Notes: generated by a model from the sequence alone, not told the origin. A DNA stretch of 64,000 nt from Sphingomonadales bacterium (GCA_017302615.1 JAFLDB010000001.1:186001-250000); one strand, 5' to 3'. Numbered from the stretch's first letter, positions 6,744-15,165 are shown. Program-made: numbers and translations.

Positions 6744-7013
6744 ATGAGCCTTACTTCGATCCTGGCGATCTATTTCCTGTTGTGGGTGATGAGCGCATTT
6801 CTGGTGATGCCCTTCGGCATTCGCACCCATGACGATGAACAGGCCGAAACCGTGCCCGGACAGGTGACCAGTGCACCGGTCAACTTCCGGCCGCGCCTCA
6901 TCGCCAAGCGCGCGACGATCCTCGCCGCTGCGCTGATGTTCCTGTACTATATCAACTACGTGAACGGCTGGGTGACTGTCGCCGATCTCGACGTCACCCG
7001 CTACATTCTCTAG
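6744..7013 (+). CDS. DUF1467 family small membrane protein
   Basis: An 89-residue protein with two hydrophobic helices (about residues 2-27 and 58-76) and the conserved core MPFGIRTHDD. DUF1467 proteins commonly follow the coaX-rnj pair in alphaproteobacteria; their function is unknown. It starts six bases after rnj and is probably the last gene of the nuo-to-rnj transcription unit. Its stop codon overlaps, on the other strand, the stop of the coiled-coil gene in the shared sequence CTAG. Confidence 0.88.
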   Translation: MSLTSILAIYFLLWVMSAFLVMPFGIRTHDDEQAETVPGQVTSAPVNFRPRLIAKRATILAAALMFLYYINYVNGWVTVADLDVTRYIL

Positions 7014-9625
7014 TTGCGCAGCCGCTCGATCGCTTGAGCCAGAGCGACGTAAAGCTTGCCCATGTCCGACGAGAGCAGGGTTACACCCAGGGCGTGACCG
7101 TCTCGGGTCGAAAGCAGCTGCCGCAGCATCGCTTCGAAATCGTGGATGTAATGGCTCACGTGGTCGCGAAAATTCCGGTCGTCCTCGTACAACTGGACCA
7201 CGGCCTTGGTCTCGCTCGCATCGAGCAGGCGCACTGCCTTGCGGGTGAAGATGCCGCGATCGCCCTTGAGGTAGGCTGCCCAGGCCGTGTCCGTGACGTC
7301 GCTGTCCATGGCCCTGGCGATGTCGATCGCATTGGAATTCAGACTTTCCGTGATCAAGGCGACGCGCCGGGCAAAGTCGTTATCGACCTGCTCCTCTGCC
7401 CTGGCTCGCGCCTGGGCAACACGAAGTTCAAGATGACCGGCCAGTTCGTTCACCTTGGCCAGTTGATCGCGCAGCTGCACTGCCGCCTCCCGGCTCACTT
7501 CTGCGGCATTGGCGGCAGCCTGCTCTAGCTGCCCGGCCACCTCGACGGCGCGGGCCTGCATTGCCCGGTCGATCGCCGCAGCGCTTTCCTCGCCAAGCTT
7601 GCTGGCCAGCGAAGACAGGGTGACTGCACTGATGCTGCCAATCCCTGCAACCGCTGCTTGCGCCGAGCCTTCCAGCTCCTCGATCGAACGCTTGAGTTGA
7701 GACTGCGCCTCTTCTGCCAGCGTCAGGCATTCGCCGCGCACCTGCTCAAGCGTGGCCAACATGGCGTCGAGTTGAACCAACTGCCTGGCACCTTCGCTTG
7801 CTACCGTGCCGGAGAGTTGTTCCATTCGGGTCAGCGCCAGCTCAAGCGTGCTGGTGCAAGTTCCCACCCGGTCGGCTACCATGTCACCCTTGGCCACGGC
7901 TTCCGACAGTCCATTGCCAAGTCGGCTGACCCGCCCCTCGATCTCCGCCAGCTTGCTCTCGCCGCTCGCCATGGCGGCGGGCAAGTCGCGCGACGAGTGC
8001 TGCACGCTGGCCTGGATCAGCTCAAGCAGGCGGACGCTGCCGTCGGTCAGCTGGGCGATGACGGCATCGGTACCACTGAGGGCGGTCTGGCTGGCCGCAA
8101 GCTTTTCACCAAGGGCGGCAAGGCTTTGCGAGACACGTCCTTCTGCTGCTCCGCCTAGCTCAGCCACTTCGTCCAGCTTACGTGCGAACTGGTCGAGCTG
8201 CGCGGCAACCGTTTCGCTGTGATCGATCAGCCTGCGCCCTTGATCTTCTTGCGCGATCCGGCGTTCGGCAATCCGGGCGTCGAGTTCTTCCAATTGAGAG
8301 CCGAGGCGCGCGATAAAGGCAGTGTGGCTCTCTTCGAAAGCCTGCTGGCGGCGCGCGATCTCATCTTCGAACAGCCGATCGCGTTCAGCCATCCTTGCAT
8401 CGAGGGTTTCCGCCTCATTGGCCAGTTCGCCCAGTCGGTTGCGTGCCGACTGCATGGCCTGTTCGTCGATTTCGGCAACCTTGGCAATGGCCCGGCCAAG
8501 ATCTTCCTCAAGCTGGACAATGGCCACTTTCCAGGCGTCGAGCGCGTTGCTTTCACTCTCGCGCAAGGCGCGCACCAGTCCGGCACTTTCATCCCGCACC
8601 GCCGTCAGTCGCGCCCGCAGCGAGTTAAGGCTTTCAGCCTCCTGGTTGTCCAGCGCATCGCGCGCCTGCTGCAGTTCCTCGGCCAGGGCTCCGGCGCGAG
8701 AACGGATCGATGCAAGCGCTTCGATTTCCTGTGCATCGAGTTGCGCGCGGAACTCCGCGCCCCGTTCGGCCAGGGCGCTGAAGCGCTGTTCGGCAATCTG
8801 ATCGAGTTGTTCAGTCTGGCGGGTGAACTCGGCCAGTGTATTCTGCACGACATCGCGCAGGGCATTGACCTGTCGTTCGCTGGCCTGGCCGAACTGGTTG
8901 AGGCGGTTGAAGCCGGCGATCAGTTCCTCGACCTGAGCATGGGCAGTGCGTCCGGCCGCGCCGATATTGTTGGTCACATCCTTGGCCGAGCTGGCGATTA
9001 CCGGCAGATGGCTACGCAGCGTTTCCATATTGTCGAGTGCTGCGGCGCTGACCGTCTGGATCGTTTCAAGCCGGGTGCCATTGTCCTGGACCAGTCCGCT
9101 CAGGCGCTCGGCGTGTTCGGACAACCGCTCTGTCGCGATCCGGCCAAGGCTTTCGATGTCCCGGGCCTGTGCCGAAATGAATTCTCGGGCCAGGCTGAGT
9201 TCGCGATTAACCGTGCGCAGGCGTTCTTCAAGCCGGGCTGATTCCTCGCCCAGACTGCGCGCAGTCTCGCCGAACCGCAGCGCCTCTCGCCGACTGTTGC
9301 GCATGGCAATCAGCCAACTGACGGCAACCAGCAAGACGGGCAGCGACCAATCCCTGATCCAGCCGATCCATTGGGCCAGATCGGCTCCTGCCTGTATCGT
9401 CGAAAGATTGGTGACAATGAACAGTCCGGTCCAGCCGATCACCAGTCCGACGGCCAGAATGCCGCCGATAATGGCCCCCCATGGCCGGGAAGGGCGGGGA
9501 TCAGGCTCCTCCCACCAATCCTCACCGCTTTCCTCCGCAGCCTCCGCGGGGGTGACAGGTTCGGCTTCGGGCGAGCTTGCAGGCTCGGCTCCTTCGATCG
9601 CAACAATGCGGGTACCGCGGGTCAT
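7010..9625 (-). CDS. Large membrane-anchored coiled-coil protein of unknown function
   Basis: An 871-residue protein. It has an acidic, proline-rich N-terminal tail of about 48 residues, two closely spaced membrane helices (about 51-73 and 92-107), then some 700 residues of Ala/Glu/Gln/Arg-rich heptad-like helix, as in apolipoprotein- or filament-like coiled coils. A C-terminal segment of about 100 residues is less repetitive (AYLKGDRGIFTRKAVRLLDA). No Walker motif or HAMP/MCP hairpin was seen, so it is neither an obvious ATPase nor a chemoreceptor. It is transcribed away from the Hpt-like gene across a 57-base gap. A structural or scaffolding role at the inner membrane is only a guess. Confidence 0.85.
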   Translation of the reverse strand: MTRGTRIVAIEGAEPASSPEAEPVTPAEAAEESGEDWWEEPDPRPSRPWGAIIGGILAVGLVIGWTGLFIVTNLSTIQAGADLAQWIGWIRDWSLPVLLVAVSWLIAMRNSRREALRFGETARSLGEESARLEERLRTVNRELSLAREFISAQARDIESLGRIATERLSEHAERLSGLVQDNGTRLETIQTVSAAALDNMETLRSHLPVIASSAKDVTNNIGAAGRTAHAQVEELIAGFNRLNQFGQASERQVNALRDVVQNTLAEFTRQTEQLDQIAEQRFSALAERGAEFRAQLDAQEIEALASIRSRAGALAEELQQARDALDNQEAESLNSLRARLTAVRDESAGLVRALRESESNALDAWKVAIVQLEEDLGRAIAKVAEIDEQAMQSARNRLGELANEAETLDARMAERDRLFEDEIARRQQAFEESHTAFIARLGSQLEELDARIAERRIAQEDQGRRLIDHSETVAAQLDQFARKLDEVAELGGAAEGRVSQSLAALGEKLAASQTALSGTDAVIAQLTDGSVRLLELIQASVQHSSRDLPAAMASGESKLAEIEGRVSRLGNGLSEAVAKGDMVADRVGTCTSTLELALTRMEQLSGTVASEGARQLVQLDAMLATLEQVRGECLTLAEEAQSQLKRSIEELEGSAQAAVAGIGSISAVTLSSLASKLGEESAAAIDRAMQARAVEVAGQLEQAAANAAEVSREAAVQLRDQLAKVNELAGHLELRVAQARARAEEQVDNDFARRVALITESLNSNAIDIARAMDSDVTDTAWAAYLKGDRGIFTRKAVRLLDASETKAVVQLYEDDRNFRDHVSHYIHDFEAMLRQLLSTRDGHALGVTLLSSDMGKLYVALAQAIERLRN

Positions 9626-9682
9626 GGGCTTTGTTTACCATGATCCGTCTGTGGATAAACCCCAGTTTAACCCATCCCCGTT

Positions 9683-9997
9683 ATGGCCGTTCACATGGCC
9701 TACGAAGCAGGAGCTCTGGACGCGACACTCGCCGCTGCAGCGGGCGACGATGCCGCGCTGTTCCGGGAGCTGCGCCTGGCTTTCATCGAGAGCGTGGAAC
9801 GACAGCTGGATCTGATGCGCAGGTCGCGCTGTGACGGCAATTGGCAGATGAGCGCGCTGCGCCTGAAGGGCGTTGCCTCAAGCTTTCACGCCGAGCAGTT
9901 GATCGCCTTGGCCGACGATGCTCTGGAAGGTGCTCCGGGCGATCCCGCCGTACTGCGCCGCATTCAGACTTTTCTCGATGATTTCGCAACGGCTTAG
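9683..9997 (+). CDS. Hpt-domain-like protein lacking the phosphoacceptor histidine
   Basis: A 104-residue, all-helical protein resembling a histidine phosphotransfer (Hpt) domain. The segment SALRLKGVASSFHAEQL lines up with the Hpt pattern A-H-x-L-K-G, but the histidine position holds Leu59 (codon CTG at 9857). The rest of the helix, including Lys62 and Gly63, fits. As written it could not accept a phosphoryl group there, so it may bind a kinase or receiver without transferring phosphate. It heads a co-directional cluster that also encodes a kinase-like protein missing its histidine. The family assignment rests on this motif and the size. A start at ATG 9695 is also possible. Confidence 0.7.
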   Translation: MAVHMAYEAGALDATLAAAAGDDAALFRELRLAFIESVERQLDLMRRSRCDGNWQMSALRLKGVASSFHAEQLIALADDALEGAPGDPAVLRRIQTFLDDFATA

Positions 9998-10106
9998 GCC
10001 GATTGGTGGGGCCAAGGTCCTGCTATTCCTTGGCACTCTGCAAGCACTCCTCTAAAACGCGGCTTTAACCCCGAACGCGCGGAGAAAGACGCTGCGGGTC
10101 GCCGTA

Positions 10107-11300
10107 TTGACCATGCTTGCCAATGCCGGTGGCGTACCGCCAGTACGCCGCGCTTTCCTGCGCGTGGGCGGCATCTCGATTGCCCGGCAGCAGGCCGTCC
10201 TTGCGTTGCATCTGCGCTGTGAGCGGGTTGTCTGCATCGCCGGGGGATTGAGCCCGGATCTGCTCGACATCCAGCATCTCGTGGAAGCATCTGGCGCCGG
10301 GTTTCATGTAATCGGAGACGGTCGCGGGCTTGCCCGTCTGGTCACGGCGGTAGACGAATTGATCGTGTTCGATGACGGCCTGTTCACATCGACCACCCAA
10401 GCCGCCAGCCTGCTGGAAGAAGGTCAGGCCGTTCTGGTGCAGCCGGTCGAGGCCGGGCTTGCTGCGGGTTTTGAGCGGATTGACCTCAACCATGCCTCTG
10501 CCGGGGCGATGCGCCTTCCGGGGCGACTGGTCGAACGCTTGTCCGATCTTCCTGCTGACTGCGACGTGGCATCGGCATTGCTCAGGATCGCCCTTCAGGC
10601 CGGCATTCGCCAGCGTCAGATCCCCATTCCGGGCCAGGACGGGCTGTTCTGGACCCTGTTGCGGGACGAGGACGAGGCCCATGCGCTGGAACCGCAATGG
10701 GTCCGCCAGCGCACCCGCGACGAAGGCGCGCTGAGCCCGGCACGGGCCGTTGCCCTGGGGATCGTGCGCGGACTCGGGCCGGCCATGCTGCATGCGGGCA
10801 GTGGCGCCAGGACCGTTGTATTCGGCGCCGCGGCGATGGCCTTGATGGCCTTGGGTTCGGGCTGGTTCGGGTTCTTCATCCTTGGTCTTGCGCTGGCTGC
10901 GATCGGGTGGATCCTGCGTGACGTGGCGGTCTTGCTGGCACGGATCGAAGCTGATCCCGGCGTGTCGCGGCGTGGCCTCGACAAAAGCGAGGTTTATGGC
11001 TGGCTCATCGACGGCTTGATCATCGTGCTGACCGCTTGGGCCATGCCGGGAGGCGGCAGCTGGCTGCAAATGGATCGTTACTTCGCTCCGTTCATGCTGG
11101 TCGCCGTTTTGCGCCTGATGCCACGCCTCGTGTCGCCGCGCTGGAGCGGTTGGTTTGGCGACCGGGCCTTGCTGGCCGGGGCAGTTGCAGGGGCCGTGGC
11201 GACAGGCTTCGGCGCTGGCGCGATCCAGGCCGCCGCGGCGCTGCTGGCGCTGGTCGCCCTGGTTCTGCCGCTCGGCCAATCGCGGCTAACGCGACCTTAA
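10107..11300 (+). CDS. Nucleotidyltransferase-like membrane protein of unknown function
   Basis: About 397 residues. The N-terminal 200 look like a degraded sugar-phosphate nucleotidyltransferase fold (FLRVGGISIARQQAVLAL, then ERVVCIAGG and VDELIVFDDGLF). The C-terminal 170 hold four to five membrane helices. The usual GxGxR...K signature is missing. A segment RDVAVLLAR followed by GWLID faintly recalls a CDP-alcohol phosphotransferase motif with its aspartates lost; this is weak inference. The TTG at 10107 may not be the true start. In-frame codons continue upstream with family-like sequence (LRVAVLTM), and GGAGAAAG at 10081-10088 sits six bases before a CTG at 10092. ATG 10113 is another choice. 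Confidence 0.72.
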   Translation: MTMLANAGGVPPVRRAFLRVGGISIARQQAVLALHLRCERVVCIAGGLSPDLLDIQHLVEASGAGFHVIGDGRGLARLVTAVDELIVFDDGLFTSTTQAASLLEEGQAVLVQPVEAGLAAGFERIDLNHASAGAMRLPGRLVERLSDLPADCDVASALLRIALQAGIRQRQIPIPGQDGLFWTLLRDEDEAHALEPQWVRQRTRDEGALSPARAVALGIVRGLGPAMLHAGSGARTVVFGAAAMALMALGSGWFGFFILGLALAAIGWILRDVAVLLARIEADPGVSRRGLDKSEVYGWLIDGLIIVLTAWAMPGGGSWLQMDRYFAPFMLVAVLRLMPRLVSPRWSGWFGDRALLAGAVAGAVATGFGAGAIQAAAALLALVALVLPLGQSRLTRP

Positions 11301-11312
11301 CCAAGCAAGTCT

Positions 11313-12308
11313 ATGGCACAGGGCATGAGCGATCTTTCTGCCCAGTTCCGGCCGACCCAGTCCGATTCCGTCCGTTCGATCGAGAGCGAGATGCGCGACG
11401 AACTGGTTCATGCCGATGCAATGGTCGGCACCATTGCGCCGATCCTGCGTCATTTGCTGGCCAACAGCGAACATTCCCTGTTCAGTGACGAGATCCTCGC
11501 TTCGATGCGCGGAATGCTGGCGGATGTCGCGCGCCAGTTGCTTGATGCCCGTAGCGGGGAAGGGGAAGGGGCCGCGCCCGGCCAGCATTCTTCCGTTGAG
11601 ATCCAGGCGCTGATCGATGGCTTCGCGGTGCAGCAAGGGTTTCTGGCCCATGCGCACGGTCTGGCGCTGGAGTGGCAGCTGACTCAGCGGCTGCAGGCCA
11701 GGCTCTCGCTCGATCCCGTGCTTTCGCCGTTGCTGCAGGCGCTGATCGCTTCGACCGAGCCGCCAGTGGCGGCCTCGGCCATGGCCTTGCTCGCGGCGCA
11801 GGCTCGCTTTGCGCAGAACCAGCGTCGGATGCACCTTCCGCTTGGTGAATTGCCCGGCGATCTGCTCCATGCGGCGCTCGTCGCCTTGCGCGCTACGGCC
11901 GGCGATGACCCGGAAGCAGCCGCGCGAATCGCGGCGGCCGAACAGCGAATTCGCGATAGCTACAACGAGAGCCGCACTCGGCTCGGTCTGATCTCCCGCC
12001 TGGTATTGGGCATGGGCGGTGGGGCAATGGCCGCGCTGTCGGTAACCCATGCCGGGGTTGCCATCTTCCTCAGTGCTCTTGCCCTTGGCTCCGGACAGGA
12101 TCGTGATCTGGCCACTCTGGCAACCAACGAGTCTCAGGTAGCGCGATTGGCTCTGGCTTTGGCCGCTGCGGGCCTGAAGCCGCAGGCAATCGAAGAACAG
12201 TTTGCGGCAATCCATCCCGAAGTAACGCTGCCCGAAGGCTTTGAGCAACTCGGAGCCGATCGGGCCGCGGCGCTGCTGGCGCGTTCCGTCGCCATGGCGG
12301 GTGGCTGA
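11313..12308 (+). CDS. Helical protein of unknown function
   Basis: A 331-residue protein not recognised from any family. It is predicted mostly alpha-helical and rich in Ala, Leu and Arg, with one mildly hydrophobic stretch (about residues 230-258, LVLGMGGGAMAALSVTHAGVA) that could be a membrane helix or a buried core. No catalytic motif was seen. It begins 12 bases after the preceding gene and ends six bases before the kinase-like gene, so the four genes from 9683 are probably one transcription unit. A role as partner of the kinase-like protein is inferred from position only. Confidence 0.75.
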   Translation: MAQGMSDLSAQFRPTQSDSVRSIESEMRDELVHADAMVGTIAPILRHLLANSEHSLFSDEILASMRGMLADVARQLLDARSGEGEGAAPGQHSSVEIQALIDGFAVQQGFLAHAHGLALEWQLTQRLQARLSLDPVLSPLLQALIASTEPPVAASAMALLAAQARFAQNQRRMHLPLGELPGDLLHAALVALRATAGDDPEAAARIAAAEQRIRDSYNESRTRLGLISRLVLGMGGGAMAALSVTHAGVAIFLSALALGSGQDRDLATLATNESQVARLALALAAAGLKPQAIEEQFAAIHPEVTLPEGFEQLGADRAAALLARSVAMAGG

Positions 12309-12314
12309 ACCGGA

Positions 12315-13751
12315 GTGACCGGCGAAGCCGCAATCCTCGCGCAGGCGCGCACCGATGCGGAAGGAATCCTCCTTTCCGCCAGCGATGTGCTGTCCGCCCT
12401 GCAGCGCGATTGCGGCGGCGAAGTGCCTGGGCGGATCGCCATTCCTGCCTTGGCCGAGCTTGAGGCAAAAGCGCGCGAATTCGGCTTGAAACTGGGCCGG
12501 ACAATGCGCGCCAGCAATGGCCGCGAGGCGATTTCGGCCTGGCTCGACATCATTCCCGATGCTGAGGGAGGCTGCCTGATTTCGGCCACCAGCTGGCAGG
12601 TCAGCCCGCTGCCACCGGAAGACCAGGCCATGGTCAGTGCCCATCGTGCCGAGATTGACCGAGCATTGGCCGAAGTAACGGCTCGACTGGATGCTCAGCA
12701 GTGCCTGCTGACGGTGGAAGGCAATGGCGCCGATCTGACTGAAGTGCTTGAGGCCATGCGCGCGGGAATTGGGCAACCATGGACGGACTTCGTGAGCATC
12801 GAGGGAGCGAGCCATCGTCAGCCGATGCACTGGCGCCTGCTCGACGGTGCCATGCTGCGGCTGGCCGGGTCTGACCGGCAATGGCGCGCCAGCCTGATCC
12901 CGGTGGAAGTGCCTGGAGCCGATCCGGCCGGTTTCGAACTGCACCTCACTGCCGATGTGCCGCTGCCGCCCCCCCTTGCGGTTCCTGCTGCGGGTACGAT
13001 TGTGCTGCCCAACAACGGTCAGGGTCTGGTCGGCCGGGACATTGCCCCGGTGCTGCGACAACCGATCGCCAGGATCATTGCCAACGCAGAAACCATCCGC
13101 ACCCGCATGGCCGGTCCTCTGGCCGAGGAATACAGCCAGTATGCGGCCGACATCGCCGCCGCCGGCCAGCATCTGCTGGCTCTGGTTGAAGATCTCGCCG
13201 ATCTGGAAGTTGTCGAATCGGATGATTTCAACACCGCGCCTGACCGGATCGATCTTGCCGATGTGGCGCGGCGGGCGTCGGGCATTCTCGCAGTTCGCGC
13301 GCAGGAGCGGGGTATCGCTATCGATGCCCCTAAACAGGGTGAGCATCTGCCGGCCATCGCCGAATTTCGGCGGGTCCTGCAGGTCCTGCTCAATCTTGTC
13401 GGCAATGCAATCCGCTATGCCCCGGACAATTCGCAAATCTGGATCAGGCTGGAAGATGCCGGCACCCGCGCCCGCTTGATCGTGGCCGATCAGGGCCCCG
13501 GCCTGTCCGAAGAGCAGCAAGCCAAGGTGTTCGAGAAGTTCGAACGCCTGGGACGCAGCGGGGAGGACGGCGGTTCGGGCCTTGGCCTCTACATCTCGCG
13601 CCGCCTAGCCCGAGCCATGGGTGGTGAACTGACCGTGGAAAGCGCGCCCGGGCAAGGCGCGCGCTTCATCCTTGAAGTACCGGCCGACTTGCTGGCGCTG
13701 GCACCCACGACGGCCCGGCCGGATGAACCGGCACAGGCCGCCGACGAGTAA
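12315..13751 (+). CDS. Histidine-kinase-like protein without the phosphoacceptor histidine
   Basis: A 478-residue protein starting at GTG. Residues 1-230 are an unrecognised, probably cytoplasmic region with no clear membrane helix. A dimerisation helix follows, and then a well-preserved HATPase domain: N box NLVGNAIRYAPD, G1 DQGPGL, F box FEKFERL and G2 GGSGLGLYIS. In the dimerisation helix, where kinases read H-E-L-R-T-P-L, this protein reads P-V-L-R-Q-P-I, with Pro245 (CCG at 13047) replacing the histidine. The downstream helix (QHLLALVEDLADL) is normal. It therefore looks able to bind ATP but not to autophosphorylate at the usual site. It could be an ATP-binding scaffold or an anti-kinase. 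The family is clear; the activity is not. Confidence 0.85.
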   Translation: MTGEAAILAQARTDAEGILLSASDVLSALQRDCGGEVPGRIAIPALAELEAKAREFGLKLGRTMRASNGREAISAWLDIIPDAEGGCLISATSWQVSPLPPEDQAMVSAHRAEIDRALAEVTARLDAQQCLLTVEGNGADLTEVLEAMRAGIGQPWTDFVSIEGASHRQPMHWRLLDGAMLRLAGSDRQWRASLIPVEVPGADPAGFELHLTADVPLPPPLAVPAAGTIVLPNNGQGLVGRDIAPVLRQPIARIIANAETIRTRMAGPLAEEYSQYAADIAAAGQHLLALVEDLADLEVVESDDFNTAPDRIDLADVARRASGILAVRAQERGIAIDAPKQGEHLPAIAEFRRVLQVLLNLVGNAIRYAPDNSQIWIRLEDAGTRARLIVADQGPGLSEEQQAKVFEKFERLGRSGEDGGSGLGLYISRRLARAMGGELTVESAPGQGARFILEVPADLLALAPTTARPDEPAQAADE

Positions 13752-13760
13752 CCGTCAACC

Positions 13761-15044
13761 TTAACGAGCGCTCAGCGGAACGTAATCGCGCTGCGTCGGG
13801 CCGGTATAGAGCTGGCGCGGACGACCGATCTTCTGACCGGGATCGCTGATCATTTCGTTCCACTGCGCGACCCAGCCGACCGTGCGGGCAAGGGCAAACA
13901 GCGCGGTGAACATGGTGGTCGGGAAGCCGATGGCGGACAGGATGATGCCCGAATAGAAGTCCACGTTCGGGAACAGCTTCTTCTCTACGAAGTAGGGATC
14001 GTTCAGCGCGATCTCCTCCAGCCGCAGCGCGGTTTCGAACAGCGGATCGTTGACCTTCAGCGCATCGAACACCTCGCGCACGGTCTTCTGCATCACGGTC
14101 GCGCGCGGGTCATAGTTCTTGTAGACCCGATGGCCGAAGCCCATCAGGCGGAACGGATCGTTCTTGTCCTTGGCGCGCTCGATGTAGTGCGGAATCTTGT
14201 CGGGTGTGCCGATTTCCTTCAGCATGTTGAGCGCTGCCTCGTTCGCCCCGCCGTGCGCCGGGCCCCACAGGCAGGCAATGCCGGCCGCGATGCAGGCGAA
14301 CGGGTTGGCACCCGACGAACCGGCCAGACGCACGGTGCTGGTCGAAGCGTTCTGCTCGTGATCGGCATGCAGGATGAAAATGCGGTCCATCGCACGTTCG
14401 ACCGCCGGGATCACTTCGTATTCCTCGGCCGGGACGCCGAAGGTCATCCGCAGGAAATTGCCGGTATAGCTGAGGGTGTTGTCCGGATAGAGGAACGGCT
14501 GACCGACCGAATACTTGTAGGCCATCGCCGCGATCGTCGGCATCTTCGCAATCAGGCGATGGCTGGCGATCTTGCGCTGCATCGGATCGGAAATGTCGGT
14601 GCTGTCATGGTAAAATGCCGAGAGCGCACCAACCACGCCGCACATGATGGCCATCGGGTGGGCATCGCGGCGGAAGCCGCGATAGAACGTGGCCAGCTGC
14701 TCGTGCAGCATGGTGTGGCGAGTGATGGTCCGGCTGAAATCGGCCAGCTCGCTCTGGCTGGGCAGCTCACCGTTGAGCAACAGATAGCTGACTTCCATGA
14801 AGCTGGAATGCTCGGCCAGTTGCCCGATCGGATAGCCGCGGTGCAGCAGGACGCCTTCATCGCCGTCGATATAGGTCAGCGCGCTTTCGCAGCTGGCCGT
14901 AGAGGTGAAGCCCGGGTCATAGGTGAACATCCCAGTCTGCCCATAGAGCTTGCGGATGTCGATCACGTCGGGACCGACGCTGCCGGAAAGGACGGGGTAT
15001 TCGAAATCGCCCGCGCCGGTGCTCACTTTGACCTGGTTGCCCAC
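13761..15044 (-). CDS. gltA: Citrate synthase
   Basis: GltA condenses oxaloacetate and acetyl-CoA at the entry of the TCA cycle. Motifs include [37 protein letters not shown] and [11 protein letters not shown], covering the catalytic His, His and Asp. The start chosen is GTG at 15044. It gives 427 residues beginning VGNQVKV and has a strong Shine-Dalgarno GAGGAGA eight bases upstream. A longer reading frame beginning at 15095 has neither a ribosome site nor family-like residues. It converges on the kinase-like gene with a nine-base gap and is divergent from comEC. Confidence 0.97.
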
Positions 15045-15165
15045 CTTACCTGTCTCCTCAAAACGCGTTGGCCGGGGCCGGCACCCGCTCCGCACAGGGC
15101 GAAACGATGGGCACGCGGTCCGGCAGCAAAGAACTACCGATATACCCTGGGGAAGGCCTTGAGCC

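Follow-up and report, generated by a model that had tools for sequence, protein, structure and literature searches.

A conserved gene block in Sphingomonadaceae encoding a pseudo-histidine kinase with complete ATP-site motifs and a diverged DUF2336 protein

What might a row of adjacent genes do when most of its products look like enzymes or relay proteins that have lost their catalytic residues? The question is raised by a 64,000-nucleotide stretch of a Sphingomonadales bacterium genome (GCA_017302615.1 JAFLDB010000001.1:186001-250000), referred to here at its full length as the window. In it, four + strand open reading frames (ORFs), numbered P1 to P4 in order, lie between a divergent coiled-coil gene and a citrate synthase gene. 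As first read, they occupy positions 9683-9997, 10107-11300, 11313-12308 and 12315-13751, with gaps of 109, 12 and 6 bases. The original prediction of four co-directional genes spaced by 6 to 109 bases is confirmed by the ORFs, with two of the starts refined. The block is core and vertically inherited in Sphingomonadaceae, across many genera, and its last gene encodes a pseudo-histidine kinase. The four genes and the main domains of P4 are as follows.

9695..9997, + strand: P1, an Hpt-like protein of about 100 residues without the phospho-accepting His (weak Hpt similarity; invariant RxRCDxNW)
10092..11300, + strand: P2, a membrane protein with a nucleotidyltransferase-like N-terminal half and a CDP-alcohol-phosphotransferase-like C-terminal half, both without catalytic motifs (AlphaFold2 model, match to 4mnd, probable CTG start)
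11313..12308, + strand: P3, an all-helical, highly diverged DUF2336 (SpbR-family) protein (profile chain, Sphingomonas-type orthologues)
12315..13751, + strand: P4, a pseudo-histidine kinase with an unrecognised N-terminal region, a HisKA-type DHp without the His and an intact HATPase_c domain (Pfam and motif columns)
13035..13220, + strand: DHp helices of P4, where RDIAPVLRQPIARIIANAETIR... replaces xxMSHELRTPLNAIIGFAE (alignments)
13368..13685, + strand: HATPase_c (ATP-binding) domain of P4, with NLVGNAIRYAP, DQGPGL, FEKFERLGR and GSGLGLYIS (Pfam range 352-457 of P4; motif columns)

P4 matches HisKA (E 3e-7) and HATPase_c (E 1.4e-29) over the Pfam cut-offs. Its H-box in the window reads APVLRQP where functional kinases have SHELRTP, which places Pro at the His position. 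We surveyed 66 orthologues, comprising 50 His-less family members and 16 sequences that bear the His. Among the 50, the lost His is replaced by Pro in 31 and by Arg in eight, with Gly, Glu, Gln, Ser or Ala in the remainder. The Glu at +1 is gone from all of them (mostly A or V instead), as is the Thr at +4 from 49, which have Q, G or S there, while a single sequence keeps Thr. The ATP-site residues, namely both N-box Asn, the G1 Asp and Gly, the F-box F and the GxGLG of G2, are kept in 50/50. In a maximum-likelihood tree, the 16 sequences with the His and the 50 without it fall on either side of one branch with 100/99 support. Loss of the His in P4 maps to this single branch, and a single family member (G053, L119) retains the His-bearing form. 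To judge from its complete ATP-site motifs, P4 is undegraded as a nucleotide-binding protein. ATP binding appears to be the most plausible activity left to the module, and ATP sensing and action by binding, both put forward in the original prediction, may be what it serves.

Outside Sphingomonadaceae but within the order, the orthologues of P4 are PAS-containing SHELRTP histidine kinases encoded directly after a DUF2336 gene. P4 is the top match to the profile of this outgroup DUF2336-linked kinase among the 14 HisKA loci of its own genome (185 bits, vs 171 for the next). In seven loci (L108, L112, L113, L118, L119, L137 and L138), flgK and/or flgL lie just upstream of the DUF2336-kinase pair on the same strand, and this position of the intact pair, seen in several of these families, suggests a flagellar or polar role. 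On the grounds of synteny, profile rank and the tree, P3-P4 would be an older DUF2336-kinase pair from the end of the flagellar hook-filament cluster that was later moved and made kinase-dead. The idea of a module built of non-catalytic relatives holds for the most part, with one qualification: the block is conserved and mostly catalytically dead, but in sister families its DUF2336-kinase pair also exists with the catalytic residues in place. Class-wide, such a kinase adjoins DUF2336 in only about 5 of the 30 best DUF2336 loci, so the pair belongs to some lineages rather than to the class as a whole. As a separate observation, a second DUF2336 gene and a NAD kinase gene lie a few kilobases away on the opposite strand in L102, L103, L115 and L114.

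The third gene had been described as unknown and helical; by profile comparison its product is no orphan. The P3 of the window has no Pfam match, PF10098 included, and its positional orthologues in Sphingomonas-type genomes (L104, L105 and L128) exceed the DUF2336 cut-off. With hhalign, window-type P3 (alignment A7) aligns to Sphingomonas-type P3 (A11) at E 2.3e-12 over 198 columns, and the latter aligns to canonical DUF2336 (A8) at E 2.5e-40 over 352 columns. By this profile chain, P3 is homologous to DUF2336. A7 compared directly with A8 gave a match too weak to be used (E 9e-4, probability 23%), and the link was made by way of the Sphingomonas-type proteins. DUF2336 members match the NCBIfam model SpbR; the outgroup DUF2336 protein reaches 161 of the 400 bits needed for the SpbR equivalog cut-off (NF052659), which is below threshold. 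P3 is thus like SpbR/DUF2336 (PF10098, NF052659) in being a distant homologue with the same place directly upstream of a kinase gene, but in the window it is shorter and falls below PF10098 detection. The AlphaFold2 model of P3 is all-helical, with a predicted local distance difference test score (pLDDT) of 92.3, and gave no significant structural match in the PDB (best VIA Z 4.8). A PHROGs search returned nothing for P1, P2 or P3. DUF2336/SpbR proteins are common in Alphaproteobacteria and nearly unstudied, and no paper mentioning DUF2336 was found in the literature searched. SpbR acts on the pole organiser PopZ. PMC12700997, with reference to Wang and Bowman 2019, cites SpbR as a developmental regulator of Caulobacter.

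Gene order, which the original prediction had left to be compared within Sphingomonadales, is conserved far beyond close strains and far beyond chance. We compared 29 first-round loci, further loci of the wider family and 80 named loci, which together span many genera. Order and orientation were identical in 29/29 first-round loci, a few of them without detectable P1 or P2. The series runs RNase J, DUF1467, the coiled-coil gene (opposite strand), P1-P4, citrate synthase (opposite strand), ComEC and LexA, with flanking genes scored wherever the fetched stretch reaches and with occasional members missing or beyond its end. The block recurs in the 80 named loci, from Novosphingobium, Erythrobacter, Qipengyuania, Pontixanthobacter, Tsuneonella, Croceicoccus, Croceibacterium and others, and those closest to the window, whose genome is Novosphingobium-like, belong to Novosphingobium. 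P4 is present in all 80, P2 and P3 in 78 each, the coiled-coil gene in 76 and P1 in 72, and several of the absences are contig ends. The wider family has the same block, with P2 and P3 more diverged. The median spacing between P3 and P4 across orthologous loci is 1 base, which is consistent with translational coupling.

The AlphaFold2 model of P2 (pLDDT 91.7) has as its top structural match 4mnd, the bifunctional inositol-phospholipid enzyme IPCT-DIPPS of Archaeoglobus (Z 23.6, root-mean-square deviation 4.7, 358 residues), about 6 Z units over the next entry. A profile search with P2 finds 4mnd alone (E 2.5e-5). P2 has the full-length fold and both domains in order, but it is without the conserved catalytic Asp D1-D4 of CDP-alcohol phosphotransferase: the signature D1xxD2G1xxAR...G2xxxD3xxxD4 is absent, the D1-D4 positions being variable and mostly non-Asp, and the GxGxR...K motif is not visible by sequence in the N-terminal half. 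E65, E128, R129, D131, R165, D357 and R358 are invariant, and P2 is therefore constrained for something other than catalysis. For P1, the Hpt fold is a weak assignment and the least secure in the block. The P1 of the window matches Pfam Hpt below the cut-off (E 0.015), and 11 of 24 homologues match it, the best at 1.7e-4. P1 resembles the Hpt domain (PF01627) in this weak profile similarity and in the xLKG context of the active-site helix. It differs in that 98 of 99 sequences are without the phospho-accepting His, the canonical position (xRLKG) being M, L, Q or E in nearly all and His in one, and in its own R-x-R-C-D-x-N-W motif, kept in 99/99. That three of the four proteins are without catalytic residues, as had been predicted, holds for P1 (His), P2 (Asp D1-D4) and P4 (His and Glu).

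Two neighbouring genes bound the block.

7010..9625, - strand: divergent coiled-coil protein of 871 residues with two hydrophobic N-terminal segments and a conserved C-terminal domain, adjoining P1 throughout the family
13761..15095, - strand: citrate synthase, an ordinary convergent boundary gene (NCBIfam E 4.8e-228), in the same place in nearly all loci

In the 871-residue neighbour, the two hydrophobic segments are followed by a long coiled coil and then by the strongly conserved C-terminal domain, which is found across Alphaproteobacteria in large coiled-coil proteins of about 540-1400 residues. A DUF2336 gene adjoins a coiled-coil gene with the same C-terminal domain in two distant genomes of the 20 examined (L260 and L261), which hints, independently of the window, at a joint function of the coiled-coil and DUF2336 proteins. 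We also observed that this domain (residues ~720-871) is almost invariant and without a Pfam family, and that at L260:8814-11932 a DUF2336 gene lies beside one for a PAS-GGDEF diguanylate cyclase and one for a coiled-coil protein of the neighbour's family. We dismissed hits between the neighbour and ZorA, SMC or tape-measure proteins as low-complexity coiled-coil matches. The neighbour resembles Caulobacter TipN, a polar coiled-coil protein of about 870 residues with N-terminal membrane segments ahead of a long coiled coil, in architecture only.

Since catalytic residues are lost in three of the four proteins and the ATP pocket of P4 is complete, binding, not chemistry, is most likely how the set signals. 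We propose that P1-P4 and the coiled-coil scaffold may form an ATP-binding, phosphotransfer-dead module that acts by protein contacts, probably located at the membrane or pole, a reading of the sequences to which we assign a probability of about 0.45. An ancestral DUF2336 protein and a PAS-containing histidine kinase would have been converted to the P3-P4 pair, which could bind ATP but not transfer phosphate. This pair would have joined the catalytically dead IPCT-DIPPS-like P2, the His-less Hpt-like P1 and the divergent coiled-coil membrane scaffold. P4 would then be a homodimeric conformational switch that detects a ligand or partner through its N-terminal region, and ATP/ADP occupancy of the intact CA domain might set the conformation of its DHp. 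That conformation would control whether P3 binds as a helical adaptor, and might do the same for a response regulator, as DivL does with DivK~P. P2, with the coiled-coil protein, could anchor the complex at the membrane, P1 could be a docking partner, and the output would probably be related to the pole or the cell cycle. The anatomy of such a module, in its gene order, homologies, lost and kept residues and single loss branch, is strongly supported; beyond it, we infer that P4 actually binds ATP and that the proteins form a complex held at the membrane, as well as the biological role. A fuller version is doubtful: an all-dead-enzyme complex around the pseudo-histidine kinase and DUF2336 adaptor, with no phosphotransfer at any step, that would read adenylate state, perhaps together with a nucleotide or lipid headgroup bound by P2, and control polarity or the cell cycle in Sphingomonadaceae.

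Several observations weigh against the ATP-binding module. In two lineages (L120 and L133) P2 is followed at once by P4, which leaves no space for P3, and P1 was undetected in several loci, so not all parts are obligatory. A P4-like match is absent from three sampled family genomes (G107, G123 and G135). The N-terminal region of P4 is not recognisably PAS, either by Pfam or in comparison with the outgroup PAS regions, and it failed to align to the outgroup PAS domains. The link of the module to cell poles is indirect. DivL binds an ATP analogue weakly, at 57 uM (PMC4211667), so the intact motifs of P4 need not mean an ATP switch.

DivL also supplies the alternative that survives best, although we consider it unlikely: that P4 is strictly DivL-like, its dead DHp binding a phosphorylated DivK-like regulator and signalling to a kinase such as CckA, with P1-P3 accessory and ATP without a role. 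DivL has no kinase or phosphatase activity, yet it senses DivK~P, and its R553, at the +3 position, matters for DivK~P binding (PMC4211667). P4 shares with DivL the histidine kinase fold with the acceptor His replaced, alphaproteobacterial origin, derivation from a working kinase and the Arg at +3, which 47 of the 50 His-less sequences keep. Its DHp is the most conserved part of the protein (80% mean column identity), and the DivJ and PdhS models give the outgroup kinase good scores. A docking-only role, however, leaves the retention of every ATP box unexplained, and 41 of the 50 have Asn at the site that corresponds to DivL Y562. P4 differs further in having Pro (R, G, E, Q, A or S in relatives) and a complete ATP-box set where DivL has Tyr and weak ATP binding, and in being encoded with DUF2336-, IPCT-DIPPS- and Hpt-like genes. 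Its own genome also carries a separate DivL-type kinase with Tyr for His, NMSYEFRTP (L291, contig C1:59256), which counts against the strictly DivL-like reading, and P4 is therefore not DivL but a second pseudokinase.

Improbable, in our estimate, is a cryptic chemistry in which P4 uses ATP to phosphorylate a His in trans, on P3 (H113/H115) or P1 (H69), as a split kinase. The complete ATP site would allow it, the P3 and P4 genes nearly overlap, H113/H115 are invariant in 57/57 close relatives of P3, and P1 has a displaced His in 89%. The same P3 residues are, however, not among the invariant columns of Sphingomonas-type P3, the two lineages noted above keep P4 without P3, and the Glu base beside the acceptor is gone from P4 as well. 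The retained IPCT-DIPPS fold of P2, the P1-P2 gap of about 80 bases and the occurrence of P3-P4 alone in outgroups would fit two units that are merely neighbours, P3-P4 from the DUF2336-kinase pair and P1-P2, with P2 a substrate-binding sensor for lipid or envelope homeostasis derived from an inositol-phospholipid enzyme. The presence of all four genes together, in one direction, throughout the family makes this distinctly improbable. Least plausible is decay, in which slowly degrading remnants of little function are held by the stable essential neighbours RNase J, citrate synthase, ComEC and LexA: P2 and P3 diverge fast and P1 or P3 is occasionally lost, but the frames are open in dozens of genomes, P2 and P3 have invariant residues, and the ATP boxes of P4 and RxRCDxNW of P1 are 100% retained.

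On present evidence the ATP-binding, phosphotransfer-dead module would not be a categorically new system, whereas the original prediction saw in it a candidate for an undescribed one. Pseudo-histidine kinases are already known from DivL (PMC4211667), so the principle is not new. The combination of parts and its evolution are new, and our literature searches on sphingomonad pseudo-histidine kinases found none. The locus offers a clean natural experiment in the passage from two-component kinase to pseudokinase, with working sister-family orthologues, one loss branch and an ATP site intact afterwards. The block supplies partners for the little-studied DUF2336/SpbR proteins, and this genome contains a second conserved pseudo-histidine kinase beside the DivL-type one. 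Should deletion mutants show defects in polarity, division or stress, the block would be a new core regulator for a large, environmentally important family.

Neither a sigma-70-like promoter nor an intrinsic terminator was found in 9400-14000, an absence that is uninformative in this clade. The true start of P1 is probably the ATG at 9695, vs 9683 in the first reading, because the P1 family begins at MAYE. That of P2 is probably the CTG at 10092, because the conserved N-terminus xRVALLS begins there and because of the codons that orthologues have at that position. Among 69 readable orthologues (loci L140-L219) these are CTG in 29, GTG in 23, TTG in 14, ATG in two and another codon in one. The non-AUG codons (66/69) suggest conserved weak translation initiation of P2. 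The CTG start is typical of the Novosphingobium clade, and a GGAG-like ribosome site often lies upstream.

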